Origin: Phenylobacterium zucineum HLK1
GTDB taxonomy: Bacteria; Pseudomonadota; Alphaproteobacteria; Caulobacterales; Caulobacteraceae
Assembly: GCF_000017265.1 (NCBI RefSeq)
Contig: NC_011144.1
Span: 1,652,001 to 1,716,000, forward strand
Length of the DNA: 64,000 nucleotides
Reading direction: 5' to 3'
Part shown: positions 42,626 to 62,766 of the stretch, in pieces
Numbering within the stretch: position 1 is the stretch's first letter
How the letters are laid out: each line of letters opens with the position of its first letter
Notes under the pieces: generated by a model
Told to the model about the DNA's origin: nothing
Seen by the model: only the letters and a program-made list of their open reading frames with translations
The model's database searches: none
Program-made: the position numbers and the translations under genes

Positions 42626-42654
42626 TGACCTGCCCCCCGCCGGTCCCTCGATCA

Positions 42655-43850: not shown

Positions 43851-43886
43851 TCAAACCGAGGGATCAGGAAGGGGGCAGGTCACAGG

Positions 43887-45323: not shown

Positions 45324-46724
45324 GTGGACGAGCTTGCCGCGTCTTCGACGATCACGGTGCAGGAGCGGCGACCGGTGGAAGGTCTCGACACGCACGTGCC
45401 GATGATCCTGCGTGACGGCGCGCTCTACGATCCCGATCTCGACCGCTTCTTCCTCGATCTGCCGCTGAGCGGGGTGCCCTCGCGCCATTCGCTGCGCGCC
45501 TATGCCTACGACGTGGCGGTATGGGTCCGCTTCCTCGCCGCTGCCTGCGGCAAGCACGTCTGGGCGGCCGGCCGCGAGGACGTCGCCGGGTTCCACCGCG
45601 CGCGACGGCGCGAGGACGCCGGCACCCGGATCTCAGCGGCCTCCTGGAACCGCGCCGTGGCCGCCCTGGAGAAGCTCTACCGCTGGGGCGAGGCCGAGGG
45701 CCTTGTCGCCCAGACGCCGTTCACCCATCGCGCCATCTGGCGTCGCGGACACGCCGGCGGCCGCGGCCGGATGACCGGCCGCAACGACGCCTATGAGCGG
45801 GCGGCGAAGCGCGCCGACGTCCGCTTCGCCACGCTCGAGGACTATCGCCTGTTCCGCGACGTGGGTCTGCGCGGCCTTACGCTGGACGGGGGTGAGCGGC
45901 CGGGCGCGCGCGACCGCAACGGCGCGCGCAACGCGCTCTTCGCCGAGCTGCTGGTCACGACCGGGCTGCGGCTCGAGGAGGCGTCCTCGCTGTTCGCTGC
46001 CGAGCTTGCCGGCCTGGCTCCCGCTGCGGCGGCCGATCGGCAGGTCTGGCTGGAGCTGCCGCAGGGCCTCACCAAGGGCGAGCGCGGCCGGCGCGTTCTC
46101 ATACCCCGCCGGTTTGTGCAGCAGCTGCTGCCCTATTTGGCGGTCGAGCGCGCCAGCGCCGTCACTAAGTTCCAGGCGCGATCCGGCTGGCGCGCCATCG
46201 AGCGGCCGATCTTCGCCCGCGCGATCGATCCGGGATCCCGCGTGCGGCTGCGCGACGGCGGATCGGTCTCGATGGACGCGCTGACGCCGGATGAGCGAGG
46301 TCGCCTCGTGCTCTGCGCCGAGGACGGCGCGCCGGCCGAGCCGGCGGCGCTGTGGCTGACCGAGGTCGGCCAGCCGGTGCGGCCTAACTCCTGGGAGGCC
46401 GTCTTCGCCCGCGCCTCGCGGCGCTGCGCCGAGGCCGGCAGGCCCATCCGGATCAGCCCACACCAGCTGCGCCACACCTTCGCGGTCCACATGCTCGCCA
46501 TGCTGATCCAGCACCGGCTCGCCGAGGCTTCGCCTTCGGCCGGCCCGATGGCCGGCTACCGCGAGCTGCTCGGCGATCCGCTGCAGCAGGTTCAGCGCCT
46601 GCTCGGCCACGCCAGCCTCGCCACCACCTACATCTATCTCGACCACATCGCCTCGCGCGCCGACACGGTCGACGCCGCCGTCGAGGAGCTGCTGGCGCTC
46701 CTGCCCGCACGGCCGAGGGCGTGA
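45324..46724 (+). CDS. tyrosine recombinase A of the trio
   Basis: 466 aa from GTG 45324. N-terminal SAM-like core-binding domain (FLDLPLSGVPSRHSLRAYAY, DVAVWVRFLAA) and catalytic domain: Arg in LLVTTGLRLEEASSLF, HQLRHTFAVHML (H-x-x-R), LLGHASLATTYIYLDH (GH and the nucleophile Tyr). First gene of three with 4-base GTGA overlaps, the hallmark of RIT operons. Likely makes one of the two strand exchanges at the 6-bp core. Confidence 0.9.
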   Translation: MDELAASSTITVQERRPVEGLDTHVPMILRDGALYDPDLDRFFLDLPLSGVPSRHSLRAYAYDVAVWVRFLAAACGKHVWAAGREDVAGFHRARRREDAGTRISAASWNRAVAALEKLYRWGEAEGLVAQTPFTHRAIWRRGHAGGRGRMTGRNDAYERAAKRADVRFATLEDYRLFRDVGLRGLTLDGGERPGARDRNGARNALFAELLVTTGLRLEEASSLFAAELAGLAPAAAADRQVWLELPQGLTKGERGRRVLIPRRFVQQLLPYLAVERASAVTKFQARSGWRAIERPIFARAIDPGSRVRLRDGGSVSMDALTPDERGRLVLCAEDGAPAEPAALWLTEVGQPVRPNSWEAVFARASRRCAEAGRPIRISPHQLRHTFAVHMLAMLIQHRLAEASPSAGPMAGYRELLGDPLQQVQRLLGHASLATTYIYLDHIASRADTVDAAVEELLALLPARPRA

Positions 46725-48499
46725 GCGGCAGACCACGCAGGGGGCGCCGCGTCGGCTTCACCGCGGCCGACGGCGCCCGATCCGACGAGCCTGGCGATCA
46801 GGTCGCCGGCCTGCGGTTCACCATCATCGCCCAGGATGGCGGCGCGGTCCTAGTGGACTACACCGCCTTTCGACCACGACGCCTGGCGCTCGCCTTCGCG
46901 CGGGCGCTGCGCCGTCTCGCGGGTTCGGGCGGCCCGCTCGGAGTCCGCACGACGGTCAAGGCCTACGCGGTCACGCTCCCGCGCTTCTTCCAGTATCTGG
47001 CCGCGACAGACGAGCCGGTCGCCGGTCCGGAGGAGCTGCGCGGCCGCCACGTCGACGCCTTCGAGGCGTGGCTGGCGGCGCAGGGGCTCTCGCGCGTCCA
47101 CCTGTTCACCGTCCTGGTGAAGGTGGTCTGCGCCTTGCGGCAGATCGCCGCCGACGCGCCGCAGGCCGTCGCGCCGGACCTGCGCGAGCGGCTGCGCTAC
47201 ATCAGCGCCCAGCCGTACGAGCGGCCCCAGCCGCGCGATACGCTGAGCCCGTTCGTGGCGCACCAGCTCCGCGACGCCGCCCGCGCGGACATCGTGAGCC
47301 TCGTGAGGCGGGTGCTCGCCGGGCCGCCGGCCGAGGCTGACCCGGGCCTGGGCAAGGTGCTCGCCGCGGCGCACGCCGTGATCGCCGCGCGCGGCGTGCT
47401 CACCCAGGAGGATCCGGAGTGGATGCGGCTCTACGGCGCGCGCTGGCGGCGCGGGTTGCAGAGCCCGCAGCTGAGCCACGACCTGCACGCCGCCCACCAT
47501 CTCACCGCCGCGGACGTGGCGCCGTGCCTGGTGCTGCTGTCGCTGGAGACGGGCCTGGAGATCGAGTGCTGCAAGGGGCTCGTCGTCGATTGCCTGCGCA
47601 ACGCGTCCGGCGGCACGGTAGAGATCGCCTATGTGAAGCGCCGCGCCCGCGGCGCCGAGCACAAGACCATCCGCGTGCGCGACGGCGGCTCCACCACGCC
47701 CGGCGGGCTCATCCGCCGCCTCGTCGAGCTCACCGCCGCGGCGCGGCGGCGCCATCCCAGCGACAGCCTCTGGGTCTACTACCGGTCCGGCGCGCTCACC
47801 GCCGGCGTCCGGCACCCCCGCGAGACGATCGACGCCTGGACCGCCCGCCACGGTATCGTCGACGACCAGGGCCGGCCGCTTCGGCTCGTCCTGTCCTCGC
47901 TGCGCAAGACCCACAAGGCGCTCTGGTACCTGAAGACCGAGGGCCGGATGGCTCGCTTCGCCGTCGGCCACACCGCCGAGGTGGCGGCACGGCACTACGC
48001 CGATATTCCCGCCCTGCGGCCGCTGCACGAGGCCACGGTGGCCGACGCCCTGGAGGAGGCGCTGGCGGGTCCGCGGCTGGTCGCGTTGGACGCGGCGGCG
48101 CTCGACGCCACCAGCGGCGCGCCTGATCCTTCGCCGCCCCCACATGATGCTGGCCCGTCGGCGCAGGACCTCTGGCTGGCGAGCTGCAACGGCTTCTACG
48201 CCAGCCCGTTCGGCGAGGCGGGGTCGCCATGCCCGACACCGTTCTGGGGCTGCCTCAAGTGCCGCAACGCAGTGATCACCGCGCGCAAGCTGCCGGCGAT
48301 CCTGGGCTTCCTCGCCTTCGTGGAGGCCGAGCGGGCGGGGCTGGCCGTCGGCGACTGGGCCGCCAAGTTCGGCGAGGTTCACGCCCGGATCACCCGCCAC
48401 ATCCTGCCGGCGTTCTCCGACGCCGTCGTGGAGCAGGCCCGCGCGGCGCTCACCGACCGACCACCTGTGGCCTACCTGCCGCCGGAAGCCCGCGGGTGA
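46721..48499 (+). CDS. tyrosine recombinase B of the trio
   Basis: 592 aa, GTG start overlapping recombinase A's stop. N-terminal core-binding part (FFQYLAATDEPVAGPEELRG) and a divergent catalytic domain: LLSLETGLEIECCKGLVVDC in place of the usual Arg block, SLRKTHKALWYLKTEGRMAR (R-K-T-H), VGHTAEVAARHYADIPAL with the Tyr. A C-terminal Cys-containing segment (CNGFYASPFGEAGSPCPTPF, CLKCRNAV) looks like a zinc-binding extension. Such middle recombinases are always odd in RIT operons. Confidence 0.85.
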   Translation: MSGRPRRGRRVGFTAADGARSDEPGDQVAGLRFTIIAQDGGAVLVDYTAFRPRRLALAFARALRRLAGSGGPLGVRTTVKAYAVTLPRFFQYLAATDEPVAGPEELRGRHVDAFEAWLAAQGLSRVHLFTVLVKVVCALRQIAADAPQAVAPDLRERLRYISAQPYERPQPRDTLSPFVAHQLRDAARADIVSLVRRVLAGPPAEADPGLGKVLAAAHAVIAARGVLTQEDPEWMRLYGARWRRGLQSPQLSHDLHAAHHLTAADVAPCLVLLSLETGLEIECCKGLVVDCLRNASGGTVEIAYVKRRARGAEHKTIRVRDGGSTTPGGLIRRLVELTAAARRRHPSDSLWVYYRSGALTAGVRHPRETIDAWTARHGIVDDQGRPLRLVLSSLRKTHKALWYLKTEGRMARFAVGHTAEVAARHYADIPALRPLHEATVADALEEALAGPRLVALDAAALDATSGAPDPSPPPHDAGPSAQDLWLASCNGFYASPFGEAGSPCPTPFWGCLKCRNAVITARKLPAILGFLAFVEAERAGLAVGDWAAKFGEVHARITRHILPAFSDAVVEQARAALTDRPPVAYLPPEARG

Positions 48500-50700
48500 C
48501 CGCGCGCCCATCCCTCCAGCCGGCCGAGGAGTTCGACACCCGGCCGGTCCTGATGACGGCGCCGCTCCGGGCGGGTTTCCAGCGCGCCGATCTCTCCCGT
48601 TACGGCGACTCCGTCTGGGACCTCTCGCCCGCGGTGTTCCGCGAGAACGCCCGGCGCTGCCACGTGACGGTCCGCTTCGATGGCGTCGGCGATCCGGCTA
48701 CGGCCGCCGCGCTTCGCGAGTACCTCCACACCCGGCTCAACGTCGCGCGGCCTGGCGGCCGCCCGGTGCTGCCGCCGGCCAGCGCGCGCGGCGCCTTCAA
48801 CCGCTGCCGCCGGTTCTTGGCGTTCGTCACCGCCGAGCTCGGGTGTTGCGATCCCGGCCGGGCCGACCAGGCGCTGGCGGACCGCTACGCCAAGGTTCTC
48901 CGGGACGCAGGGCTCAGGCCTACCGCCATCTCGCACCTGCTGGAGGTCGTGTTCGATCTCTTCGCCCTGCGCGATCGGCTGCCGACCGCGCGGCTCGCCT
49001 TCGAGCCCTGGCCCGGCCGCTCCCCTGCGCTGGTCGCCGGCGTCAGGGGCGGCCCCGCCGAGAACCGCACGCCGCGCATTCCCGAGCCGGTCATGGCGCC
49101 GCTGCTCGCCTGGTCGCTGCGCTACATCGACCTGTTCGCCGCCGACATCTTCGCCGCCCGGGCCGAGCTGACCGGGCTCGAGCGTCGGCGCGACGCGCTC
49201 CTGCGCCAGGATGCGCCCCTGGCCGGGCTGGAGCGACGCCGGCGCCGGCGCGAGCGCCTGGCGGCCTTTTTCGACCAGCGGCGCGCGGAGGGCCGCGGCG
49301 TGCCGATCTGGACGAGCGCCCACAACGGCATCTGGCGGCGCGATCCTGCGACGGGAGAGGTCACCCCGCCCATCAACGCCCACCTCCTGCACCTCCACGT
49401 CGGGATCGACGCGCAGGACCAGCCCGGCGACCACCTGCAGCTCGACGGCGGCGCGCCCGACCTGATCGCCGCCGCCGTCGCCGAGCTCGGGGTGGAGGTA
49501 GGCGGCCTGGATGCCGCCATCGCCGAGCTTCCCGGCGCGGGTCATCCATGGCGACCGCGCTTCGACGCCAAGACGCTGGCGCGGGAGGAGCGGATGCTGC
49601 AGGCCGCCTGCTACGTCGTCTGCGCCTATCTCACCGGCATGCGCGATTGCGAGGTCCAGGCCATGCGCTCGGGTTGCCTCTCGCTCACGCGCAGCGAGGA
49701 CGGCGTGATCCTTCGCCATCGCCTGCGCTCCACCGCTTACAAGGGCAAGCGGGCGATCGGCGAGCCCGCCGAGTGGGTCACCATCGCCCCGGTGGCCCGC
49801 GCCGTGGAGGTGCTGGCCCAGCTTTCCGCCGCCCCGGCGGCCGCCCGCGGCGTCGATACTCTGTGGCCGGTGCTGTCGCTGAAGACCGGGACCAAGGCCC
49901 ACGTCTCGGCCGAGATCGTGCGCCAGCTCAACGCCTTCCGCGATCACCTCGACGGCCTGTTCGGCAGCCCCGGTGAGCCGGTCATCCCGCGCGATCCGGA
50001 CGGCGCGCCCTGGCGCTTCACCACGCGGCAGTTCCGCCGCACCATCGCCTGGCACATCGCCAACCGCCCGTTCGGGACCGTGGCCGGCATGATCCAGTAC
50101 AAGCACGCCTCGGTCGCCGCCTTCGAGGGCTACGCCGGGTCCAGCCGCTCGGGGTTCCGCGCCGAGGTCGAGGCCCAGCGCCGCCTTGGCCAGCTCGACG
50201 ACATCCTGGATTATTTCGATCGGCGCCAGGGCGGCGCAACGCTTTCCGGCCCCGCCGCCGGCAAGGTCGCCCGCACGCTCGACGCCGCGGCCGAGGCGCT
50301 GGGGCCGTCGCCGGTGATACTCGCCGACCGCGGACGGCTCCGGGCCCTGCTGGCGAGCCCGGCGCGCAGCCTGCATCCCGGCGTCCTCGCCGACTGCTTC
50401 TTCGACCCGGCGACGGCGCTCTGCCTCATCGGCCGCTCCGGCGAGGCCTCCGGGCCGGCCATTCCGCTCTGCCAGCCGACCCGCTGTCCTAACGCCTGCA
50501 TCACGGCGCGCCACCGGCCGGCATGGTCGCGGGCCGCCGACGACGCGCGCGGTCTCCTGCGCGAGAAGCGCCTGTCGCCGGCGCAGCGCACCGTCCTGGC
50601 CGGCGAGCTGGCGCGGTTCACGGCCGTTCTGGACGGCATCGACGGCGCGCCTGGACCTAACCAGGCTTCGCCGGGGCCTCCGCGTAGAGCGCCAGGATGA
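48496..50700 (+). CDS. tyrosine recombinase C of the trio (large)
   Basis: 734 aa from GTG 48496, overlapping B's stop. Large N-terminal part, then the catalytic domain: AYLTGMRDCEVQAMRSGCLS (Arg), RFTTRQFRRTIAWHIANRPF (R-R-T/H), MIQYKHASVAAFEGYAGSSR (K-H and Tyr). C-terminal Cys motifs (CFFDPATALCLIG, CQPTRCPNACITARHRPAW) parallel those of B. Its last 44 bases overlap the convergent merR gene. Confidence 0.85.
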   Translation: MTARPSLQPAEEFDTRPVLMTAPLRAGFQRADLSRYGDSVWDLSPAVFRENARRCHVTVRFDGVGDPATAAALREYLHTRLNVARPGGRPVLPPASARGAFNRCRRFLAFVTAELGCCDPGRADQALADRYAKVLRDAGLRPTAISHLLEVVFDLFALRDRLPTARLAFEPWPGRSPALVAGVRGGPAENRTPRIPEPVMAPLLAWSLRYIDLFAADIFAARAELTGLERRRDALLRQDAPLAGLERRRRRRERLAAFFDQRRAEGRGVPIWTSAHNGIWRRDPATGEVTPPINAHLLHLHVGIDAQDQPGDHLQLDGGAPDLIAAAVAELGVEVGGLDAAIAELPGAGHPWRPRFDAKTLAREERMLQAACYVVCAYLTGMRDCEVQAMRSGCLSLTRSEDGVILRHRLRSTAYKGKRAIGEPAEWVTIAPVARAVEVLAQLSAAPAAARGVDTLWPVLSLKTGTKAHVSAEIVRQLNAFRDHLDGLFGSPGEPVIPRDPDGAPWRFTTRQFRRTIAWHIANRPFGTVAGMIQYKHASVAAFEGYAGSSRSGFRAEVEAQRRLGQLDDILDYFDRRQGGATLSGPAAGKVARTLDAAAEALGPSPVILADRGRLRALLASPARSLHPGVLADCFFDPATALCLIGRSGEASGPAIPLCQPTRCPNACITARHRPAWSRAADDARGLLREKRLSPAQRTVLAGELARFTAVLDGIDGAPGPNQASPGPPRRAPG

Positions 50701-51076
50701 GCGGACAGCCGGGGTCCAGCCCCGCGTCGCAGGCTCGGACGGAGTCGGCGAGCACCCGTTCCATCCGCCTGAGGTCGGCGATCCGCGCCCGCACGTCCTT
50801 CAGGTGCGACCCGGCGAGCTCACGCACCTCGGCGCAGGCGGACTGCCCGCCGGCGGCGAGCCCCAGGAGGGCGCGCACCTCGTCCAGCGTGAAGCCCAGC
50901 TCGCGGGCCCGGCGCACGAAGCCCAGCCGGCCCACGTCTTCTGCCCCATAGCTGCGGTAGCGGCCGCGTCGCGGCGGGGCGGGCAAGAGGCCGATCCGCT
51001 CGTAGTAGCGGATCGTCTCGATGTTGCAGCCGGTGCGGCGCGAGAGCTCGCCGATGGGTATCGCGGTGTCCGCCAT
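50657..51076 (-). CDS. merR: mercury-responsive MerR regulator
   Basis: 139 aa. MerR HTH (IGELSRRTGCNIETIRYYER, YRSYGAEDVGRLGFVRRARE) and the three Hg(II)-binding Cys of MerR: SACAEV, RACDAG and PGCPLI, with LAGSHLKDVRARIADLRRME between, as in the Tn501 protein. This pattern separates it from CueR. Divergent from the merT-like gene with the operator between. Represses or activates at the 19-bp-spacer promoter. Confidence 0.92.
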   Translation of the reverse strand: MADTAIPIGELSRRTGCNIETIRYYERIGLLPAPPRRGRYRSYGAEDVGRLGFVRRARELGFTLDEVRALLGLAAGGQSACAEVRELAGSHLKDVRARIADLRRMERVLADSVRACDAGLDPGCPLILALYAEAPAKPG

Positions 51077-51097
51077 GCAAAGCCTTCCGATTAGGGC

Positions 51098-51128
51098 TTG
51101 AGTCTGTAGTCGCTACAGATGGCATCGT
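51098..51128 (+). promoter_or_regulatory. MerR-type promoter/operator (PmerT)
   Basis: TTGAGT (51098-51103), 19-base spacer containing the dyad CTGTAGTCGCTACAG, then CATCGT (51123-51128). Lies between divergent merR and merT-like genes. Confidence 0.85.
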
Positions 51129-51156
51129 GGGCGGCATGGCGCCAGGAGACGACGGC

Positions 51157-51570
51157 ATGACGGCGAGCAGCGGGCCCCAGGTCCGACGAGAGGGACAGGG
51201 CGGCAAGCCCATCGAGGCCGGCCTGAGCTGGGCCGCCGTCACCGCCGCGGCGGGCGCGGTCTTCGCCTGGGCCGCGTGCTGCGTGCTGCCGATGTCGCTG
51301 GCGCTGGCCGGCCTTGGCCTCGGCGGCCTGAGCTGGTTCGCCGAGCAGCGCACCTGGATCACGCTCGCGGCGCTGGGCGCGACCGGCGCGGGCTGGCTCC
51401 TGGCCTGGCGCCGCGCCCGGATGTGCCGGACGGACGGCGCCTGCGCCCCGCCGTCGCGGCTCGGGACCGGGCTGCTGGCCGCGGCCACGCTGCTTGCGCT
51501 GCTCGCGCTCGTCTGGCAGCCGCTCGTCGAGCCCTGGGCCCTGGCCCTGATCCGGAGCGCCCGCGGATGA
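51157..51570 (+). CDS. merT: MerT-like mercuric ion transporter
   Basis: 137 aa with three membrane helices. First helix carries the vicinal Cys pair in FAWAACCVLPMSLALAGL; a cytoplasmic loop has MCRTDGACAPP, the second Cys pair; then a third helix. Transports Hg(II) inward for reduction. ATG 51157 is preceded by AGGAG; an in-frame GTG at 51127 sits on the -10 element. No MerP gene is present between it and the next gene. Confidence 0.88.
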   Translation: MTASSGPQVRREGQGGKPIEAGLSWAAVTAAAGAVFAWAACCVLPMSLALAGLGLGGLSWFAEQRTWITLAALGATGAGWLLAWRRARMCRTDGACAPPSRLGTGLLAAATLLALLALVWQPLVEPWALALIRSARG

Positions 51571-51791
51571 GTGACGTGCAGATCGAGCTTCGCTCCACGC
51601 TCACCTGCCCGCACTGCGGCCAGCGGACGACGGAGACCATGCCGACCGACGCCTGCCAGTATTTCTACGACTGCCGGGGCTGCGGCGTGGTGCTCAAGCC
51701 CAAGCCGGGAGACTGCTGCGTCTACTGCTCCTATGGCGACGTGCCCTGTCCGCCGATCCAGGAGGGCGGCAGCGAGGCGTGCTGCGCGTGA
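51567..51791 (+). CDS. GDCCVxC-domain small protein of mer operon
   Basis: 74 aa. Zinc-ribbon-like start (LTCPHCGQRTTETMPTDAC, YFYDCRGCGVVLKPKP) then GDCCVYCSYGDVPCPPIQEG and C-terminal CC. This is the GDCCVxC family seen in mercury operons, sometimes with Sec in place of a Cys; here all positions are Cys. Function unknown, likely Hg(II) binding or relay. Start overlaps the merT stop by ATGA. Confidence 0.85.
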   Translation: MSDVQIELRSTLTCPHCGQRTTETMPTDACQYFYDCRGCGVVLKPKPGDCCVYCSYGDVPCPPIQEGGSEACCA

Positions 51792-51802
51792 CGATGGCCC
51801 TG

Positions 51803-51833
51803 TTGACTCTGTAGCCGCTACAGACGCTACGCC
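51803..51833 (+). promoter_or_regulatory. second MerR-type promoter/operator
   Basis: TTGACT (51803-51808), 19-base spacer with CTGTAGCCGCTACAG, then TACGCC. The dyad differs from the first operator by one central base. It would drive the membrane-protein and MerA-like genes separately from merT. Confidence 0.8.
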
Positions 51834-51853
51834 AGGATTGGAGGTAGTCGATC

Positions 51854-52240
51854 ATGGCCTCGCATGACCAAGCCGCACCAAGGTCGCGGGACTTCCTGGC
51901 CCGGCCGTTGAGCGCGATCCTCTGGTGGGGGCTGCCGCTCGCGGCGGGCTGGTCGGCGGACTTCCTGCCGATCACCCAGACGGCCACGACGCTCGTCTGG
52001 ACCGCCGCGCTCGCCTGGATGGGCGCGGGCTGCACCCTCAACGCCCGCCGCTGCCATCGGCTGCACTGCTACGTCTCGGCTCCGGTGCTGTTCCTGGGCG
52101 CGATCGGCACGCTGGCGGCCGCCCTGGGGTTCGCGCCGTTCGGCCCGCATACCGCCAGCTACGTGATCCACACGACCTTGGTGCTCGCACTCTCCACGTT
52201 CCTGGTCGAGCCGGTCTGGGGCAAGTACCGGTCCCGCTGA
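51854..52240 (+). CDS. four-helix membrane protein of mer operon, unknown family
   Basis: 128 aa. Hydrophobic segments ILWWGLPLAAGWSADFL, ATTLVWTAALAWMGAG, YVSAPVLFLGAIGTLAAALG and YVIHTTLVLALSTFLV. Cys/His cluster GCTLNARRCHRLHCY on the loop after helix two could bind Hg(II). GGAGG before the ATG. I do not recognise a named Mer transporter (not MerC, E or F); a mercury transport role is inferred from the operon and its own MerR box. Confidence 0.7.
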   Translation: MASHDQAAPRSRDFLARPLSAILWWGLPLAAGWSADFLPITQTATTLVWTAALAWMGAGCTLNARRCHRLHCYVSAPVLFLGAIGTLAAALGFAPFGPHTASYVIHTTLVLALSTFLVEPVWGKYRSR

Positions 52241-52274
52241 TCGTTCGTCGGCGTGACCGTCGCAGGAGGACGCC

Positions 52275-53621
52275 ATGGCCGGCTACGACCTGATCGTCAT
52301 CGGCAGCGGCACCGCCGCCCAGGTTGCGGTCGGCCGTGTCCGCGCGGCCGGCTGGTCCGTCGCGGTGATCGACCATCGCCCGTTCGGCGGGACCTGCGCG
52401 CTGCGCGGCTGCGATCCGAAGAAGATGCTGGTCAGCGGCGAGGAGGCCCTCGACGCCGCCGCGCGCATGGCCGGACACGGCGTCGAGGGCGCCCTGGCGA
52501 TCGACTGGCCGGGCCTGATGGCGTTCAAGCGGACGTTCACCGATCCGATCCCGGCCAAGCAGGAGGCCCGCTACGCCGCGCTGGGCGTCGACGCTTTCCA
52601 TGGGACCGCCCGCTTCGTGGGTCCCGATAGGGTCGCGGTTGACGGCCACACCCTGCAGGCCCGCCACATCCTGATCGCCAGCGGCGCGCGCCCGGTCCCG
52701 CTCGGCATCCCGGGCGAGGACCTGGTCGTCACGAGCGACGCGTTCATGGAGATCGAGGCCCTCCCGCGCCGCATCGTGCTGATCGGCGGCGGCTACGTCG
52801 CCGCGGAGTTCTCGCACCTGGTCGCGCGCGCCGGCGCCGAGGTCACCATCCTGCAACGGGCTGCGCGGCTCTTGCCGCACTTCGATCCCGACGCAGTGGG
52901 CTGGCTCATGCCGCGGTTCCGGGAGCTCCGCATCGCCGTCGAGACCGGCGCGACGGTCACCCGCGTCGAGCAGTCGCACGACGGCTTGCGCGTCCACGCC
53001 TCCCGGCGTGACGGGCCGCACCTCAGCGTCGCAGCCGACCTGGTGGTCCACGCGGCTGGGCGCGGTCCCGACCTCGACGCCCTGGACCTGGCGGCCGGCG
53101 ACGTCGCCGCGCGGGACGGCCGTCTGCAGCTGAACGACCACCTGCAGAGCGTCTCCAACCCACGGGTCTATGCCGCCGGCGACGCGGCCGGCGTGGGGCC
53201 GCCGCTGACGCCGGTCTCCAGCCACGACGCCAAGGTGGTCGCCGCCAACCTGCTCGACGGCCCCTCGCACCGGCCCGACTATCGCGGCGTCCCGAGCGTC
53301 GCCTTCACCGTGCCGGCCATCGCCGCCGTCGGGCTGTCGGAGGACGAGGCGCATCGCCAGGGGCTCAGGTTCCGGGTCAACGCCGCTTCCACGCCGGACT
53401 GGTTCACCGCGCGGCGCCTGGCCGAGCGGGTCTACGGCCACAAGGTGCTCATCGAGGAGGCCACCGACCGGATCCTCGGCGCGCACCTGGTGGGGCCGCA
53501 CGCCGAGGAGGTGATCAACCTCTTCGGCCTCGCCATCCGCCACGGGCTCACCGCGGCCGACCTGCGATCCACCATGTTCGCCTATCCGACCGGCGCATCG
53601 GACGTGAGCTCCATGCTCTGA
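52275..53621 (+). CDS. MerA-like FAD/NAD(P) disulfide oxidoreductase
   Basis: 448 aa. FAD-binding (DLIVIGSGTAAQVAVGRVRA), redox disulfide GGTCALRGCDPKKML, NAD(P)-binding (IVLIGGGYVAAEFSHLVARA), second FAD motif RVYAAGDAAG and dimerisation domain. Unlike classical mercuric reductase it lacks the N-terminal HMA domain and the C-terminal vicinal Cys pair, ending ...YPTGASDVSSML; the usual His-Pro base is also absent at FAYPTGA. The active-site text is closer to the glutathione-reductase-like branch. Its mer context suggests Hg(II) reduction or thiol reduction. Confidence 0.82.
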   Translation: MAGYDLIVIGSGTAAQVAVGRVRAAGWSVAVIDHRPFGGTCALRGCDPKKMLVSGEEALDAAARMAGHGVEGALAIDWPGLMAFKRTFTDPIPAKQEARYAALGVDAFHGTARFVGPDRVAVDGHTLQARHILIASGARPVPLGIPGEDLVVTSDAFMEIEALPRRIVLIGGGYVAAEFSHLVARAGAEVTILQRAARLLPHFDPDAVGWLMPRFRELRIAVETGATVTRVEQSHDGLRVHASRRDGPHLSVAADLVVHAAGRGPDLDALDLAAGDVAARDGRLQLNDHLQSVSNPRVYAAGDAAGVGPPLTPVSSHDAKVVAANLLDGPSHRPDYRGVPSVAFTVPAIAAVGLSEDEAHRQGLRFRVNAASTPDWFTARRLAERVYGHKVLIEEATDRILGAHLVGPHAEEVINLFGLAIRHGLTAADLRSTMFAYPTGASDVSSML

Positions 53622-53823: not shown

Positions 53824-54720
53824 ATGCCTTCTCATCGCGCAGACATCTACGCTCGCATCACCGGCGAGATCGTCGCCGCCATCGAAGCCGGCGCCGGCGA
53901 GTTCAGGATGCCGTGGCATCACGACGGCGCCGCGACCAGCCGACCCGTCAACGTCGCCTCGTCCCGGCCGTACCGGGGCGTGAACATCCTGGCCTTATGG
54001 ATCGCCGCGCGCGAGGCCGGCTATCCGTCCGGCCTCTGGGGCACCTACCGCCAGTGGCTGGCGCTGGGCGCGCAGGTTCGCAAGGGCGAGCACGCCACCT
54101 CGATCGTGCTCTGGAAGACCCTGCGCCCCGCAGGCGGCGACGAAGGCGACGAGCCCGAGGCGCCAGGCGGCCGCACGCGGATGTTCGCCCGCGGCTACGC
54201 GGTGTTCAACCTGGCCCAGGTCGACGGCTATGCGCCCGCGGCGTCGCCGCAGCTTCCTGAGTCCGAGCGCCTGGCCCACGCGGAAGCGTTCTGGTCCCGC
54301 CTCGGCATCGTCACCGTCTACGGCGGCTCGGAGGCCTACTACCTGCCGTCGAAGGACACGGTGTTCATGCCGCCGTTCTCGGCCTTCCACGACGCCGGCG
54401 CGCATTACAGCACCCTCTATCACGAGGGGGTTCACGCGACGGCTGCACGCCATCGCTGCAACCGTGATCTCTCCGGCCGCTTCGGCTCCGAGGCTTACGC
54501 CATGGAGGAGGTGGTCGCGGACCTGGGTTCGGCGCTGATCCTGGCCGACCTCGGCATCGCGGTCCACCCGCGGCCGGACCACGCCGCCTACATCGCCTCC
54601 TGGCTGAAGGTGCTGAAGAACGACACCTCGGCGATCTTCACGGCCGCCTCCAAGGCCCAGGCCGCCGCCGACTGGATGCACGCCCAGCAGCCTGCGGCGC
54701 AGGCGGACGTCGCCGCATGA
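53824..54720 (+). CDS. ardC: ArdC-type antirestriction protein, intact second copy
   Basis: 298 aa. ArdC_N part (ADIYARITGEIVAAIEAGAG, YRGVNILALWIAAREAGY, YRQWLALGAQVRKGEHATSI, MFARGYAVFNLAQVDGY) and a zincin C-terminal part with HEGVH in STLYHEGVHATAARHRC and the third ligand region AYAMEEVVADLGSA. Homologous over its length to the broken 302-aa copy outside the element but clearly diverged. Carried inside the element that disrupts the first copy, so it may replace the lost function. Confidence 0.9.
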   Translation: MPSHRADIYARITGEIVAAIEAGAGEFRMPWHHDGAATSRPVNVASSRPYRGVNILALWIAAREAGYPSGLWGTYRQWLALGAQVRKGEHATSIVLWKTLRPAGGDEGDEPEAPGGRTRMFARGYAVFNLAQVDGYAPAASPQLPESERLAHAEAFWSRLGIVTVYGGSEAYYLPSKDTVFMPPFSAFHDAGAHYSTLYHEGVHATAARHRCNRDLSGRFGSEAYAMEEVVADLGSALILADLGIAVHPRPDHAAYIASWLKVLKNDTSAIFTAASKAQAAADWMHAQQPAAQADVAA

Positions 54721-54762
54721 CAGGTCGTCTCGCGGCGGGCGCGTCCCCGTGTCCGCCGCCCC

Positions 54763-54799
54763 GTGTTGATGGAGTGTTGATGGCCCAGCGTGTTGACTG
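54763..54799 (+). repeat. three iterated GTGTTGA repeats at the right end
   Basis: GTGTTGATGG at 54763-54772 and 54774-54783, and GTGTTGACTG at 54790-54799, the last running into the inverted end. Probable recombinase arm-binding sites; unproven. Confidence 0.55.
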
Positions 54800-54808
54800 T
54801 CAGGATAA

Positions 54809-54814
54809 GTCGCC
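54809..54814 (+). repeat. 6-bp direct repeat GTCGCC at right end of recombinase element
   Basis: Second copy of the flanking hexamer; the ardC frame resumes at 54815. Confidence 0.85.
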
Positions 54815-55006
54815 GAACTGGGCGCAGCCTTCCTCTGCGCCGACTTGGGCCTGGAGTTGCAGCCCCGGGAGGACCACGCCGCCTATATCGACAGCTGGCT
54901 GAGCGTGCTGCAGGGCGACAAGCGGTTCATCTTCACGGCCGCCGCCTACGCCCAGCGCGCCGCCGACTTCCTGCACGGTCGTCAGCCGGCGAGCCTCGCC
55001 GCTTGA
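54815..55006 (+). pseudogene. ardC: ardC 3' part, after the recombinase element
   Basis: 63 codons plus stop: ELGAAFLCADLGLELQPRED, AAYIDSWLSVLQGDKRFIFT, AAAYAQRAADFLHGRQPASL. These align with the C-terminus of the intact copy (VVADLGSALILADLGI, YIASWLKVLKNDTSAIFT, AAADWMHAQQPAAQ). In frame with 40588-40981 and 44814-45136 once the insertions are removed. Confidence 0.92.
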
Positions 55007-55013
55007 GACGCCA

Positions 55014-55040
55014 CGCCCCGCGCCTGACCGGCGCGGGGCG
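55014..55040 (+). terminator. GC hairpin after ardC
   Basis: CGCCCCGCGCC / GGCGCGGGGCG, 11 bp with a 5-base loop, just after the ardC stop. No T-run. Confidence 0.5.
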
Positions 55041-55117
55041 CTCGCGCGCGTGCAAGCCGTTCGGCGCCGAAGCGTGACGGGGCGCCACGTTTCCGCCGCC
55101 GACTCGCACGACGATTC

Positions 55118-55131
55118 CCCAGTATACTGGG
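55118..55131 (+). promoter_or_regulatory. 14-bp palindromic operator upstream of QseC-like gene
   Basis: CCCAGTATACTGGG is perfect and lies 37 bases before the regulator's ATG. The AGTATACT core may overlap a -10. Likely autoregulatory site for the XRE protein. Confidence 0.7.
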
Positions 55132-55167
55132 TGGCTGAAGTGCGGCCGGCGCCGCCGTCTCCTCCTC

Positions 55168-55377
55168 ATGCGGTTGAGGGGAGTCGTAGCGAGGAATCTG
55201 CGCCGTCTGCGCCAGGCCAAGGGTCTATCGCAGGAGGAACTCGCCGACCGTGCCGACATCAATCGCAACTACGTCGGCTTGCTCGAACGCGAGGAGCACG
55301 CCGCGACCATCGACATGCTGGAGAAGCTGTCGGAGGTTCTGGAGGTCGAGCCGGCGGCATTTTTCGCCCGCGACTGA
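55168..55377 (+). CDS. qseC: QseC-like XRE regulator of ICE transfer
   Basis: 69 aa, a single Cro/C1 HTH domain (GVVARNLRRLRQAKGLSQEE, LADRADINRNYVGLLEREEH). Size and neighbours match QseC, the DNA-binding repressor that sets the on/off switch of qseM in ICEMlSymR7A-type elements. Here it is transcribed in the same direction as the DUF2285 gene, 54 bases upstream of it, instead of divergently. Name given by context; the HTH alone is generic. Confidence 0.7.
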   Translation: MRLRGVVARNLRRLRQAKGLSQEELADRADINRNYVGLLEREEHAATIDMLEKLSEVLEVEPAAFFARD

Positions 55378-55431
55378 CGCTTCAACTCTTAGGATGTGTC
55401 GGCCCCGCAGCGCGACGCGTAGGGTCAACCC

Positions 55432-55695
55432 ATGACCCAGGCGGAGCTCCGCGAGCGGGCGCCCGAAGGCGTGCCGCTGACCGAATACGATCGCGAGATC
55501 GCGCCGATCTATCTGCGCCTGCTGGACGCCGACGCGGCCGGCGCCGACTGGCGCGAGGTCTCGAGGATCGTGCTGGGGGTCGACGCCGCGACCGAACCCA
55601 GGCGCGCGGAGGTCATGCATGCCAGCCACCTGGCCCGTGCGCGGTGGCTGCGCGATGGCGGCTACCGCGAGTTTCTCGGGTCAACCTCAAGCTGA
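55432..55695 (+). CDS. qseM: QseM-like DUF2285 antiactivator
   Basis: 87 aa. DUF2285 text: VPLTEYDREIAPIYLRLLDA, ADWREVSRIVLGVDAATEPR, ASHLARARWLRDGGYREFL. In ICEMlSymR7A the small DUF2285 protein QseM binds and blocks the excision activator FseA and TraR. Lies between the XRE gene and the split fseA-like gene, as expected. Confidence 0.75.
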   Translation: MTQAELRERAPEGVPLTEYDREIAPIYLRLLDADAAGADWREVSRIVLGVDAATEPRRAEVMHASHLARARWLRDGGYREFLGSTSS

Positions 55696-55791
55696 ACTCA
55701 CGTTGAGCAACAACTCCGCTTTACGTCCAACCTCTGCGTGTGGATAACTAGTGCGGCTGTGGGGGCGCTTCCTCTGTATCGGGAGAGCGCC

Positions 55792-56569
55792 TTGAGTGAC
55801 GAGGACTGGCGTTCAGAAGAACGCTACGCCGGATTGCGCGAGCTTTCCGCGCCGGCCCTCGCCTGGGAGTTCTTGCGTCGTAACGACGACTACCAGGCCG
55901 ACTTCGAACATATCAAAGCCGAGGTGGCCTCCGGGGGGACAGGGCGCGCCGGCGACGCGCGCCTGGCCTTCTGGGGGCTGAGCTTTCGCTGCGGATCCGG
56001 CGCTCGCGGCGCCAGCACAGCCAGTGTTCTGGCGGCCTGACGCCTATCCCCGCACGGTCGTCCTGGCGCCGGCGCCGGCGGTCGAAGGCGGTCACCGTAG
56101 CATCCGTTTCGAGCCGGAAAGTTGGCCTGGACGGTTCGTCGCGCGCGCCGGTCCCGACGGCGTACATGCGATCCTGAAAACGCGGGACGATGAGCACCGG
56201 CTTTGGATGCCAGCCGCCCTGGCGCCCGGCCAGCCAGTCGCCTGCGTCGTCCCGTTCGGTGCCAATGCGGCCTGCGGAACGGCGGCGGCGTTGCACCTCT
56301 GGCGCCATCTCACCGGCCGGTCTGCGCCCGCCGCACGGCCGGACCGCAAGCTCCAGCGCTTCCAGCAAAGCCTGCGGGCGCACGATGGACATCTGGCCGG
56401 CGGCAGCTATCGGGAGATCGCCGAGCAGATCTTCGGCGCCTCCAGGGTGGCGGGTGAGAACTGGCGAACCTCGCCGCTGCGTGACGCCGTCATCCGCCTG
56501 GTGCGCTCCGGGGCCGCCCTGGTCCGGGGTGATTACAAGCGGCTTCTGCGTAGCAAACACGACGACTAG
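55792..56569 (+). CDS. fseA: FseA-like DUF6499/DUF2285 excision activator, two frames joined by +1 frameshift
   Basis: TTG start (GGGAGAG upstream). Zero frame: DUF6499 part (EDWRSEERYAGLRELSAPAL, AWEFLRRNDDYQADFEHIKA, LAFWGLSF) stopping at 56040. At AGC-TTT-C (55981-55987) a +1 shift gives AADPALAAPAQPVFWRPDAY and the DUF2285 half (LQRFQQSLRAHDGHLAGGSY, AVIRLVRSGAALVRGDYKRL). Fusion is 258 aa. In ICEMlSymR7A msi172 and msi171 are fused in this way to make FseA, which turns on rdfS. UUU-to-UUC slippage by one tRNA-Phe fits programmed shifting; a mutational frameshift cannot be excluded. Confidence 0.8.
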
Positions 56570-56687
56570 GGATGGCGGAATCGCCCTCCGCAAGTTCACC
56601 ATCCCCCCGCGCGCCCGCACTCCGACAAGGTGTCCAGGTCCTCGCTGCGCTCCGCCGCAGCATCCAGGAGAACCCTTGGAGTGTCCG

Positions 56688-56963
56688 ATGATGGCCGAAG
56701 CCACCGCCGCCCTGCCGCCCCGCCTGCTGCGCACCCCGGAAGCCGCCCGTTTCCTCGGCCTGTCCGGCCGAACGCTTGAAAAGCACCGCACCTACGGCAC
56801 CGGGCCGACCTACATGAAGATTGGCGGGCGGGTCGTCTATTCGGTCGGCGACCTGCAGACCTGGGCCGCCCGCGGGGTCAAATCCTCGACCGCCGACCCG
56901 GGCGTGGATGTCGTCCACCCGGCCCGCCGAGTCACCGAAGACCGTAGCTTCGCCGAGCGCTGA
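56688..56963 (+). CDS. rdfS: RdfS-like excisionase (AlpA/MerR-type HTH)
   Basis: 91 aa. HTH_17-type DNA-binding domain: PRLLRTPEAARFLGLSGRTL, EKHRTYGTGPTYMKIGGRVV, YSVGDLQTWAARG. Start ATG 56688 or 56691, with GGAG 6 bases upstream. Position between the FseA-like gene and DUF2840/traF matches rdfS, the recombination directionality factor that FseA activates. AlpA-type proteins are otherwise generic regulators. Confidence 0.75.
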   Translation: MMAEATAALPPRLLRTPEAARFLGLSGRTLEKHRTYGTGPTYMKIGGRVVYSVGDLQTWAARGVKSSTADPGVDVVHPARRVTEDRSFAER

Positions 56964-56974
56964 GGTCGTTCGCC

Positions 56975-57481
56975 ATGCTCACTGCGCTGACCCCCGCCAG
57001 CGCGCCGCCCGCGCTGGATCGCGCCCTGACCTGGGTGGAGCTGGTCTGGTACGAGAAGCGGATCGAGCGCTGGATTCGGTTCGGCCAGGTGCGCGAGGAG
57101 CGCCTCCTCGACCGCCGCCGGCGCCTCGTCGGCTTCGCGCCCGGCGACGTCTTCGCCTTCGTCCGCTGGCAGGCCAACGACCGCGGCACGGTCGGCTCGA
57201 GGCTCGACATCGTGCAAGCCGTCGCCCCTGGCGGGCGCTGCTCGACGGTTGCTGGCGTGACGCCGGGCGGCGAGCTGCTGCTGCGCCTGTCCGGCTGGCC
57301 GACGGTGCAAAAGGCGCTCGCCGCCATCGACGCCGTCGAACTGGTGGGTGTCGAACCGACGGCCGCTGCGCCGGACTACTGGCGGCAGGTGCACAACCGG
57401 CTGAAGGCGCGCGCGTCGCCTGAGCCCTACACGCTCGTGCGGCACCGGGCCTGGCGTCTCCGCAGCGCGGTGGGCGCCTGA
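56975..57481 (+). CDS. DUF2840 protein of ICE transfer operon
   Basis: 168 aa. DUF2840 signature: LTWVELVWYEKRIERWIRFG, RLVGFAPGDVFAFVRWQAND, GTVGSRLDIVQAV and WRQVHNRLKARASPEPYTLV. Always found next to traF in these elements; function unknown. Its stop overlaps the next start (TGATG). In related elements a parA gene often precedes DUF2840; none is here. Confidence 0.88.
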   Translation: MLTALTPASAPPALDRALTWVELVWYEKRIERWIRFGQVREERLLDRRRRLVGFAPGDVFAFVRWQANDRGTVGSRLDIVQAVAPGGRCSTVAGVTPGGELLLRLSGWPTVQKALAAIDAVELVGVEPTAAAPDYWRQVHNRLKARASPEPYTLVRHRAWRLRSAVGA

Positions 57482-58002
57482 TGGACCGCCGCTCCACCCT
57501 CGCGTGGGCGCTGCTCGGGGCGCTCGCCCTTGGCGTCCCCGTGGCGGCCTCGCTCCCGTCGCAGCTGGTTTGGAACGCCACGGCCAGCGCGCCGGAAGGG
57601 CTCTATCGCCTGCACGCCGATCGTCCGCCCGCGGTTGGCGACTGGGCGGCCGTCCGGGCGCCTCAACCGCTCGCCGGATGGCTCGAGCGCCGCGGCTACC
57701 TTCCGGACGGCGTGCTGCTGATCAAGAAGGTCGCGGCGCGCGCACCGAGCCGGGTTTGCCGCCAGGAGGGCGCGATCACGGTGGACGGACGGCTCGTGGC
57801 CCGCGCCGAGCCCCGCGACCGGGCAGGGCGGCCGCTGCCGGTCTGGCGCGGCTGCTTCGTCCTCGCCGAGCACGACCTCTTCGTCCTCAACCCCGCCGCC
57901 GGTTCGCTTGACAGCCGCTACTTCGGCGCCCTGTCGGACGCCGCCGTGGTCGGTCGGGCCGAGCCTCTTTGGCTGATCCAGGATCCCCGACATGGGCGAT
58001 GA
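57481..58002 (+). CDS. traF: TraF-type S26 signal peptidase
   Basis: 173 aa, one N-terminal membrane helix (AWALLGALALGVPVAASLP) and periplasmic protease domain. Catalytic Ser expected in NATASAPEGLYR and Lys in VLLIKKVAA; GDWAAVRAP and RYFGALSDAAVVGRAEPLW are family blocks. TraF processes pilin precursors for conjugation. The pilin and pore genes it would serve are absent from the window. Confidence 0.88.
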   Translation: MDRRSTLAWALLGALALGVPVAASLPSQLVWNATASAPEGLYRLHADRPPAVGDWAAVRAPQPLAGWLERRGYLPDGVLLIKKVAARAPSRVCRQEGAITVDGRLVARAEPRDRAGRPLPVWRGCFVLAEHDLFVLNPAAGSLDSRYFGALSDAAVVGRAEPLWLIQDPRHGR

Positions 58003-59057: not shown

Positions 59058-60776
59058 ATGATCGAGGACGACTTTCATCTCCGCGTGGGGCGCATCCGCT
59101 CGCGGTTGTCCGGCGGGCCCCGGACCTTCGTCGGCCAGGCGCTGGCGGCGGCCGAACGGGCTGGCGGTCTGGTGCGCCGCGCCACGGCGCGGAACGGCGC
59201 CTTCGGGCGCGGCCGGGCGGCCAGCCTGGCCGCGCACCGACCGGGGGCGCGGAGCCGCGGCGCTGTCGTGAAGGCGCGGGTGGTGCGGCAGGGCGGCGGT
59301 CGGGCGCCACTGGCCACCCACCTCAACTACCTGCAGCGGGAGGGGGTCACCCAGGACGGCGCCCGCGGGCGGCTGTTCGACGCCGACACCGACGCGGCCG
59401 ACGCGCGCGGCTTTGCCGAGCGCTGCGAGGGCGACCGCCACCACTTCCGCTTCATCGTCTCGCCCGACGACGCCGAGCAGCTGTCGGACCTGAAGGCCTT
59501 CACCCGCGACCTGATGGAGCAGGCGCAGGCCGATCTCGGAACCCGCCTCGACTGGGTGGCGGTGGACCACTGGAACACCGGGCACCCCCATCTGCACGTG
59601 ATCGTCCGCGGCCGCACCGACCAGGGCGCGGACCTGGTGATCTCTCCCGACTACATCCGCGAGGGGCTGCGGGCCCGCGCCGGTCATCTGGTCAACTTGG
59701 AGCTTGGGCCGCGCACCGACGCCGAGCTGCAACGGCGGATGAACCTTCAGATCGGCGCGGACCGCTGGACGAGCCTGGACCGCGGCTTCGCCCGCCTGGC
59801 GGACGAGCAGGGCGTGGTGGACCTGCGCCGGGGCGGGGGCGCGGGTCCGGCCGACCTGCACCAGGCGCGCGTCGCGCGGATGCGCAAGCTCAAGGGCCTC
59901 GGTCTCGCCGATGAACTTTCGCCGGGCCGCTGGCGCCTGGGGCCGGACGCCGAAGCGGCCCTGCGCCAATTGGGGCAGCGGCAGGATGTGATCGCCCGCA
60001 TGCACCGGGCGCTCGCCGACCAGGGCGTGGAGCGGGATCCGGCGCGGTTCGAGGTGGACGGCGGACCCCCGGAGGGCTTGCTCGGGCGGCTTGCCGGGCG
60101 CGGCTTGGACGATGAGCTGCGCGGCAGCGGCTACGCGATCCTGGATGGTCTCGACGGCCGCACCCACCACGTCCGGCTGGCGGACCTGGACGACGCCAGC
60201 GACGCACCCCTGGGCAGCCTTGTCGAACTCCGCCGCCGCGAGTGGCAAGGCCGGCGCAGCCGGCTGGTCCTGCAGGTCCGCTCCGACCTGGGCTTGGCCG
60301 ACCAGATCCGCGCGGAGGGCGCCACCTGGCTCGACCGCCAGCTGGTTGGGCGCAACCCCGCCGGGCTGGGGGAGGGTGGCTTCCCAGACGAGGTGCGGGC
60401 GGCTCTCGATGCCCGTACTGACCACCTGGCCCGGGAGGGGCTGGCCCAGCGGAGCGGGCGACGGGTGGTGTTCGCCCGCGATCTCATCGAGACGCTGCGT
60501 CAGCGGGAGCTCGCGACCGCATCGCGCCGGCTCTCTGGCCAGACCGGCCTGGAAGCGCAGCCGATCGGCGCCGACGGCGTGGTGGCCGGGACCTACCGGC
60601 AGCGGGTCACCCTGGCCTCCGGGCGCTTTGCGATGATCGACAATGGCCTGGGCTTCACCCTCGTGCCTTGGCGGCCCGATCTCGAACGGCATCTGGGCGG
60701 CCACGTGCAGGGCGTGCTCACCCCAGGCGCCGGCGTCGCCTGGTCCTTCAGCCCCAAGCGCGGGCTCGGCCGATGA
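59058..60776 (+). CDS. rlxS: MobP-type relaxase with DUF3363 (RlxS-like)
   Basis: 572 aa. VirD2-like relaxase: basic N-terminus (SRLSGGPRTFVGQALAAAER), THLNYLQREGV, and the HxHxH metal site in WNTGHPHLHVIVRGRTDQGA (near residue 175). The C-terminal half is DUF3363 (VVFARDLIETLRQRELATAS, FAMIDNGLGFTLVPWRPDLE). It nicks oriT and pilots the strand. Start ATG 59058 right after the inverted repeats. Confidence 0.9.
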   Translation: MIEDDFHLRVGRIRSRLSGGPRTFVGQALAAAERAGGLVRRATARNGAFGRGRAASLAAHRPGARSRGAVVKARVVRQGGGRAPLATHLNYLQREGVTQDGARGRLFDADTDAADARGFAERCEGDRHHFRFIVSPDDAEQLSDLKAFTRDLMEQAQADLGTRLDWVAVDHWNTGHPHLHVIVRGRTDQGADLVISPDYIREGLRARAGHLVNLELGPRTDAELQRRMNLQIGADRWTSLDRGFARLADEQGVVDLRRGGGAGPADLHQARVARMRKLKGLGLADELSPGRWRLGPDAEAALRQLGQRQDVIARMHRALADQGVERDPARFEVDGGPPEGLLGRLAGRGLDDELRGSGYAILDGLDGRTHHVRLADLDDASDAPLGSLVELRRREWQGRRSRLVLQVRSDLGLADQIRAEGATWLDRQLVGRNPAGLGEGGFPDEVRAALDARTDHLAREGLAQRSGRRVVFARDLIETLRQRELATASRRLSGQTGLEAQPIGADGVVAGTYRQRVTLASGRFAMIDNGLGFTLVPWRPDLERHLGGHVQGVLTPGAGVAWSFSPKRGLGR

Positions 60777-60789
60777 GGAGGACACGGCC

Positions 60790-62766
60790 ATGAACGGCAC
60801 GAAGGTGATGTGGGGGCAGCTGGCGGCGGTGTTCGCCATCGCCTTGGCCGGCGTCTGGGCGGCGACGCAATGGACGGCCTGGCGCCTGGCGTTTCAGCCG
60901 GAGCTCGGACGCCCCTGGTTCGAGCTTGTGGGCTGGCCGGTCTATCCGCCGCCGGCCTTCTTCTGGTGGTGGTTCGCCTTCGACGCCTATGCCCCGAAGG
61001 TCTTCCTCGAAGGTGCGATGATCGCGGTGACCGGTGGCGGCGTCGCTATCGTCGTGGCCATGGCCCTGTCCATCTGGCGGGCGCGGGAGTCCCGCTCGGT
61101 GACGACCTACGGCTCCGCCCGCTGGGCCAAGCCTCGGGAGGTGGCGGCCGCGGGCTTGCTCGGCGAGGACGGCGTGGTCCTGGGCCAGCTCGACGGCGCT
61201 TACCTGCGCCACGACGGTCCCGAGCACGTGCTCTGCTTTGCGCCGACCCGCAGCGGCAAGGGCGTGGGCCTGGTCGTGCCCTCGCTGCTCACCTGGCCAG
61301 GGTCAGTGATCGTCCACGACATCAAGGGCGAGAACTGGCAGCTGACCTCGGCCTGCCGCGCCCGCGTCGGGCGGGTGCTGCTGTTCGACCCCACCAACCC
61401 AGAAAGCGCCGCCTACAATCCGCTCTTGGAGGTGCGGCGCGGCGACGCCGAGGTCCGCGACGTCCAGAACGTCGCCGATATCCTGGTGGACCCGGAGGGG
61501 GCGCTGGAGCGGCGCTCGCACTGGGAGAAGACCAGCCACAGCCTGCTGGTCGGAGCGATCCTGCACGTGCTCTACGCCGGCCCTGACAAGACCCTGGCCG
61601 GCGTCGCCGAATTCCTGTCGGACCCCCGCCGGCCGATCGAGGCGACGCTGCGGGCGATGATGGCGACCCCGCACCTCGGCGATCGGCCACATCCGGTGGT
61701 CGCGTCGGCCGCCCGGGAGCTGCTGAACAAGAGCGAGAACGAGCGCTCCGGCGTGCTCTCCACCGCCATGTCGTTCCTCGGCCTCTACCGCGATCCCGTG
61801 GTGGCCAAGGTGACCAGCCGCTGCGATTGGCGCATCGCTGACTTAGTCGACGGCGCACGGCCCGCCAGCCTCTACCTCGTCGTGCCGCCGTCCGACATCA
61901 GCCGAACCAAGCCCTTGGTGCGCCTGATCCTCAACCAGATCGGCCGACGTCTGACAGAGGAGCTGAGCGCGAAGTCGTCGCGGCACCGCGTGCTGCTGAT
62001 GCTCGACGAGTTCCCGGCGCTTGGACGGCTGGACTTCTTCGAGAGCGCGCTCGCGTTCATGGCCGGCTACGGCCTCAAGGCCTTCCTGATCGCCCAGTCC
62101 CTGAACCAGATCGAGAAGGCCTACGGACCAAACAACGCCATCCTCGACAACTGCCACGTCCGCGTCTGCTTCGCGACCAACGACGAGCGGACCGCTAAGC
62201 GGGTGTCGGATGCGCTGGGCACCGCCACCGAGCTGCGGGCGATGAAGAACTACGCCGGCCATCGTCTCTCGCCCTGGCTGGGTCACCTGATGGTCTCGCG
62301 CCAGGAGACCGCCCGGCCGCTGCTCACCCCCGGCGAGGTCATGCAGCTGCCGCCGGACGACGAGCTGGTCCTGGTCTCGGGATCGCCGCCGGTCCGAGCC
62401 AAGAAGGTTCGCTACTTCGAGGACGCGCGCTTGCGACGGCGGGTTGGCCAGGCCGCAACGTCCAGCCCGGCGGCATCGCCGCCGGACGACTGGTCGTCTC
62501 TCAAGCCGATCGCGGCGCCTGCCGCGCCGGTCCGGTCCCCGCCCGCCCTAAGCGAGGGGGATGCGGAGGAGGGCGGTCTCCGCCGCGAGCCCGAGCCGAT
62601 GTTCGAGGATGCCGCCGAGCCGCCGCCGCCCGTGCGCGAGTTCGGCTTCTTCGAAGACGAGCCGGACGATGACGGCGAGGGCGCTGAGCAGGCGGCCTTG
62701 CAGACCCGCTTTCGCCGGGTCGCGCGCCAGGCCGCCCTCGATCCGGACGATGGACTGGAGCTGTGA
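60790..62766 (+). CDS. traG: type IV coupling protein TraG/VirD4
   Basis: 658 aa. Two N-terminal membrane segments, Walker A in CFAPTRSGKGVGLVVPSLLT, Walker B in HRVLLMLDEFPALGRLDFFE, plus HDIKGENWQLTS and LIAQSLNQIEKAYGPNNAIL. Acidic C-terminal tail (FGFFEDEPDDDGEGAEQA). Hexameric ATPase that feeds the relaxosome to the secretion channel. GAGGAGG RBS. Normally followed by trb genes, which are missing. Confidence 0.92.
   Translation: MNGTKVMWGQLAAVFAIALAGVWAATQWTAWRLAFQPELGRPWFELVGWPVYPPPAFFWWWFAFDAYAPKVFLEGAMIAVTGGGVAIVVAMALSIWRARESRSVTTYGSARWAKPREVAAAGLLGEDGVVLGQLDGAYLRHDGPEHVLCFAPTRSGKGVGLVVPSLLTWPGSVIVHDIKGENWQLTSACRARVGRVLLFDPTNPESAAYNPLLEVRRGDAEVRDVQNVADILVDPEGALERRSHWEKTSHSLLVGAILHVLYAGPDKTLAGVAEFLSDPRRPIEATLRAMMATPHLGDRPHPVVASAARELLNKSENERSGVLSTAMSFLGLYRDPVVAKVTSRCDWRIADLVDGARPASLYLVVPPSDISRTKPLVRLILNQIGRRLTEELSAKSSRHRVLLMLDEFPALGRLDFFESALAFMAGYGLKAFLIAQSLNQIEKAYGPNNAILDNCHVRVCFATNDERTAKRVSDALGTATELRAMKNYAGHRLSPWLGHLMVSRQETARPLLTPGEVMQLPPDDELVLVSGSPPVRAKKVRYFEDARLRRRVGQAATSSPAASPPDDWSSLKPIAAPAAPVRSPPALSEGDAEEGGLRREPEPMFEDAAEPPPPVREFGFFEDEPDDDGEGAEQAALQTRFRRVARQAALDPDDGLEL

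Follow-up and report, generated by a model that had tools for sequence, protein, structure and literature searches.

A split fseA-type gene with a putative +1 frameshift site on a conjugative element of Phenylobacterium zucineum HLK1

The window analysed is a stretch of 64,000 nucleotides (C2:1652001-1716000) from the genome of Phenylobacterium zucineum HLK1, 4.38 Mb in two contigs. At 55792-56569 it carries a coding region whose halves lie in different frames. Is this a gene broken by mutation, or one whose product is completed by +1 frameshifting? The region is very probably the split fseA of an integrated conjugative element, in which +1 slippage at a low rate would yield a 258-aa activator switching on rdfS and transfer. 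The device is already known; judged by its sequence, the window gene adds a new case to the family of FseA genes with a +1 frameshift. An FseA switch with a likely antiactivator and a likely excision factor is now placed on a Phenylobacterium conjugative element, and the codons under constraint at the slip site are identified.

According to the available text of PMC10359603, about 61% of 4709 FseA homologues are split, and frameshifting was shown by experiment in the rhizobial element ICEMlSymR7A. FseA of this element (msi172-msi171, Mesorhizobium japonicum) consists of DUF6499 and DUF2285 joined by the +1 frameshift; the window gene is alike in sequence, and the kinship to msi172/msi171 suggested in the initial annotation accords with this published family. 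Genes of the FseA type are described there as often misannotated as fragments.

Frames, junction and fold of the split gene

The first ORF (msi172-like; 55792..56040, + strand) starts with TTG, is preceded by GGGAGAG, encodes DUF6499 and ends at the zero-frame stop TGA 56038-56040. TTG is found at the equivalent place in the homologues L002, L003, L004 and L006, and ATG in L081. The second ORF (msi171-like; 55982..56569, + strand) lies in the +1 frame, encodes a middle domain and DUF2285, and ends at TAG 56567-56569. Pfam matches are PF20109 (=DUF6499; 2.3e-18) in the zero frame and PF10074 (=DUF2285; 3e-30) in the +1 frame. The AWEFLRRN motif of the FseA DUF6499 domain is present in the translation.

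The two frames overlap by 59 bases. Since a TGA at 55979..55981 closes the +1 frame, which is open from 55982, the frames join inside this overlap. At its 5' end, just 3' of that TGA, lies TTT-C (55984..55987), the only in-frame TTT-C along the zero-frame path, at which tRNA-Phe would slip from UUU to UUC. The zero frame reads CTG GCC TTC TGG GGG CTG AGC TTT CGC TGC at the break and continues to its TGA. A Shine-Dalgarno-like TGGGGG (55972..55977) is located 6 nt 5' of the slip codon. Frames and Pfam matches thus agree with the break originally assigned to AGC-TTT-C between the DUF6499 and DUF2285 halves. The fused product of 258 aa predicted with it is also obtained: TTTC read as a single Phe gives an FseA-like protein of 258 residues, free of stops.

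The TTT-C break is not a chance feature, because TTT is rare in window genes (8 of 100 Phe codons in eight genes) and the same TTTC with the same offset recurs in other assemblies (L002, L003, L004, L005 and L006). In the window and in these five homologues AGC stands before TTT in place of the usual CGA, a difference from ICEMlSymR7A.

The joined protein was modelled with AlphaFold2 from an input of 16 continuous homologues and 32 pairs of halves. The model has pLDDT 94.3 (at least 93 in the blocks around the junction) and pTM 0.90, and predicts that the two halves fold together as a single protein. The best match among solved structures is RovC of Yersinia (6xz5; Foldseek 5.4e-7), of the same overall fold (VIA Z 15.6, 202 residues, rmsd 3.6, 22% identity in the aligned part). 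RovC activates a type VI secretion system, unlike FseA in its role (PMC10359603, available text). QseM is next (Z 4.5, rmsd 6.1, 69 residues), a match too weak to stand by itself. Purifying selection acts on the +1-frame half, with dN/dS of 0.086 (L002) and 0.121 (L004) between the window and its closest relatives and 0.21-0.57 in the remaining pairs.

Conservation of the break and competing explanations

The window protein or PF20109 was searched against 1119 genomes (own genome included), and named contigs were scanned in addition. The 185 loci reduce to 163 distinct DUF6499 genes when identical first 150 bases are counted once: 127 split with +1 offset, one split with +2 (L176), 30 continuous, and five dropped for lack of a DUF2285 match (L035, L062, L083, L121, L184). 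The offset is +1 in 127 of 128 split genes; this one-sidedness speaks against decay, which should give both directions. Across alphaproteobacteria the break keeps its direction, position, sequence and codon choice.

Alignment of homologues, proposed in the initial annotation as a check, bears out the conservation of frame break and TTT-C: in-frame TTT-C is found at the break in 117 of 127 split genes, TTT-T in seven (L112, L115, L119, L120, L130, L142, L165) and neither in three. TTT-T also permits re-pairing, and the working slip site is probably TTT-Y. The arrangement TGG GGN NNN NNN TTT C is present in 109 genes; TTT C stands one codon later in five and follows WR or WD, not WG, in three. 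The alignment consensus is WGLxFxxxPxxxxxxxxxxW. Codon choice at the site is skewed far beyond what the encoded residues need: Phe is TTT in 109/109 (background in the same genes elsewhere, 0.267), Arg is CGA in 70/74 (0.094), Gly is GGG in 76/109 (0.125) and TTG is used in 64/96 (0.106), although the P values are not independent, the 109 genes being related. Among 67 split representatives of <60% identity, TTT-C occurs in 62, TTT-T in three and neither in two, and CGA in 32 of 34.

In the 50 nt 3' of the site no RNA structure was found (mean z 0.08 for 109 genes, 0.05 for the window; mononucleotide shuffles). Stimulating parts, if any, are therefore upstream: TGGGGG and the codons between. 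No Rfam family was detected in 54500-57500. In prfB, +1 slippage takes place at CUU with a stop codon next and an upstream Shine-Dalgarno-like sequence at closer spacing. The window site shares the +1 slip and the upstream sequence with prfB but has no stop in the A site and a wider spacing. UGGGGG precedes the site in ICEMlSymR7A as well, and the sequence has already been noted as ribosome-binding-site-like (PMC10359603, available text).

Continuous homologues had been named in the initial annotation as evidence against programming. They do exist (30 of 163, with L081 inside the window's own clade), which makes the frame break dispensable; those with a WG motif (25 of 30) never have TTT-C at the usual slip codon (0/25). 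TTT-C is found one codon later in L122 and L128 and one codon earlier in L124, all three members of a deep group without any split gene; in L019 and L020 the TTT is not followed by C. A rapidly built tree of 157 genes requires eight changes between the split and continuous states, at least six of them on well-supported branches. These changes, and the place of L081, indicate that the two forms have interchanged. In L040, L031, L048 and L057 the zero frame is open for hundreds of bases beyond the slip site, with DUF2285 in the +1 frame, so that ribosomes remaining in frame would make a long alternative C-terminus.

Origin of the break by a one-base change in a pseudogene is highly improbable. 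Decay does occur in the family: L046, L088 and L177 are split without a usable slip codon, L176 has the other offset, and all four are probably decaying copies. Against this, 124 of 127 split genes have the slip-competent TTT-Y at the break, both halves are under purifying selection and the neighbouring genes are intact; conservation largely refutes decay. A sequencing error in the T run is scarcely conceivable: single-base indels are common errors, but identical TTTC and offset in L002-L006, from other assemblies, already refute it. Transcriptional slippage, which would give a mixed mRNA population, has next to no likelihood. It is the mechanism treated in the available text of PMC5009743, and some fusions do arise in this way, but the run here is merely TTT, and the constraint on CGA and GGG codons points to decoding.

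Very unlikely, too, is the synthesis of two proteins, with the DUF2285 ORF reinitiated at GTG 56024, TGGGGG serving as its ribosome-binding site and the halves pairing afterwards. This GTG is indeed the first start of the DUF2285 ORF, and lone DUF2285 domains such as QseM exist. It lies, however, 46 nt 3' of TGGGGG; a conserved Pro, placed between the slip site and the following Trp in the consensus, precedes it in the window; the codon constraint falls on the slip codons; and continuous homologues are known. Programmed control rather than decay, as originally proposed, is supported by the conserved break, the codon choice, purifying selection on the +1 half, the one-protein fold model and the published family.

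The lone DUF2285 gene and its co-occurrence with split genes

The initial annotation was right on frame break and family and overlooked the conserved TGGGGG, a QseM-like gene upstream and an RdfS-like gene downstream. The upstream gene (55432..55695, + strand) encodes a lone DUF2285 protein of 87 aa (PF10074, 4.6e-8; QseM 7uqt_A, 8.4e-15), a candidate QseM-like antiactivator. Together with fseA it accounts for the two PF10074 matches of the whole genome. Like QseM it is a lone acidic DUF2285 protein; it is QseM-like by sequence, but stands upstream on the same strand and is co-directional with fseA, unlike QseM of ICEMlSymR7A. Lone DUF2285 domains of the homologue set are acidic (mean charge -2.8, 82% negative, n=131 hits; window protein, net charge -3), whereas those of FseA are basic (mean charge +8.2, n=161 hits; window +9 in the last 95 residues). 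The same charge contrast is reported in the available text of PMC10359603. A small XRE-type HTH regulator of 69 aa (55168..55377, + strand; PF01381, 1e-14) precedes the lone DUF2285 gene and may have a QseC role. Of the 82 split genes preceded by a lone DUF2285 gene in the same orientation, 30 also have an XRE gene of this kind upstream on their strand, and the XRE gene was rejected as a constant partner.

Of the 127 split genes, 102 have a QseM-like lone DUF2285 gene no more than 1.5 kb away, compared with one of 30 continuous genes (L081; Fisher 1.2e-15); in most cases it precedes the DUF6499 match by about 150 nt in the same orientation. Flanks of about 10 kb, some of which end early at contig ends, contain a lone DUF2285 gene in 12 more of 20 split genes inspected (of 25 without a neighbour) and in none of 19 continuous genes (of 29 without a neighbour). 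Independent pairs on the tree number 3.3 in the same direction, 0 in the opposite direction and 2.7 without difference; with so few independent contrasts the median p is 0.25. The association is strong in counts, is not significant once relatedness is allowed for, and is not claimed as proven. No statement of this association was found in the available parts of PMC10359603, PMC8627217, PMC5882170 and PMC11963761; the 2015 PNAS paper on FseA may bear on it.

A tentative and rather doubtful proposal is that frameshift and antiactivator form one device: the pause at TGGGGG/UUU would expose DUF6499 for capture by the QseM-like protein before DUF2285 is made, and elements losing the frameshift would lose the QseM-like gene. 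Co-translational capture has been proposed for R7A (PMC10359603, available text). If the one-device reading is true, the co-occurrence counts would be comparative evidence for such capture, and the pairing makes the idea testable.

Transfer region and proposed circuit

An imperfect inverted repeat (56569..56605, + strand) is a candidate FseA box 5' of the rdfS-like gene; its position is conserved among 106 homologous gaps when these are aligned. Enumeration of hexamer pairs gave no clear picture of the box. The rdfS-like gene (56688..56963, + strand; HTH_17, 3.4e-7; RdfS 8dgl_A, 3e-8) encodes a putative recombination directionality factor and has two in-frame ATGs, 56688 and 56691. It is followed by genes for a DUF2840 protein (56975..57481, + strand; PF11000, 1.5e-66), a TraF-like S26 peptidase (57481..58002, + strand; PF10502, 2.7e-19), an SLT protein, a relaxase (DUF3363, rlxS-like; 59058..60776, + strand; PF11843, 1.3e-81) and the coupling protein TraG (60643..62766, + strand; PF02534, 5.8e-102 for 60691-62763); trb genes run beyond the window (L186). 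QseM and RdfS belong to the same circuit as FseA in ICEMlSymR7A (PMC10359603, available text), and relatives of both flank the window fseA.

Most ribosomes would translate the DUF6499 ORF in frame and halt at 56038, releasing a short N-terminal polypeptide. A smaller share, held by pairing of TGGGGG with the 3' end of 16S rRNA while wobble-paired UUU occupies the P site, would move forward by one base, from UUU to UUC, and continue in the DUF2285 frame to the 258-aa activator. The activator would bind the inverted repeat 5' of the rdfS-like gene and turn on rdfS and the transfer genes, whose expression would begin excision and conjugation. The QseM-like protein from the upstream gene would presumably inhibit the activator by binding to its DUF6499 part. 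The slippage, the low rate assumed for it, binding of the activator to DNA and the action of the antiactivator are postulated here by analogy with ICEMlSymR7A, as is a frameshift that may limit excision in this organism.

No terminator-like or sigma-70-like site was found in 54950-56750, and no tRNA in the window or 60 kb around it. The window is also free of LuxR and LuxI genes: the genome has its LuxI-type gene and its best LuxR-type gene on the other contig, C1, and a weaker LuxR-type match at C2:2264768. A quorum-sensing input like that of ICEMlSymR7A is therefore not evident.

Just 5' of the regulatory module is a gene for an ArdC antirestriction protein (53824-54720). MerR-like, small membrane and reductase-like ORFs at 50657-53621 were assigned by eye to mercury resistance. 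Three consecutive long ORFs occupy 45324-50700, the first encoding a tyrosine recombinase and the other two having no Pfam match; the arrangement looks like a recombinase-in-trio element. Group II intron-like pieces, with reverse transcriptase and maturase/HNH in separate ORFs, are present at 41498-44792.
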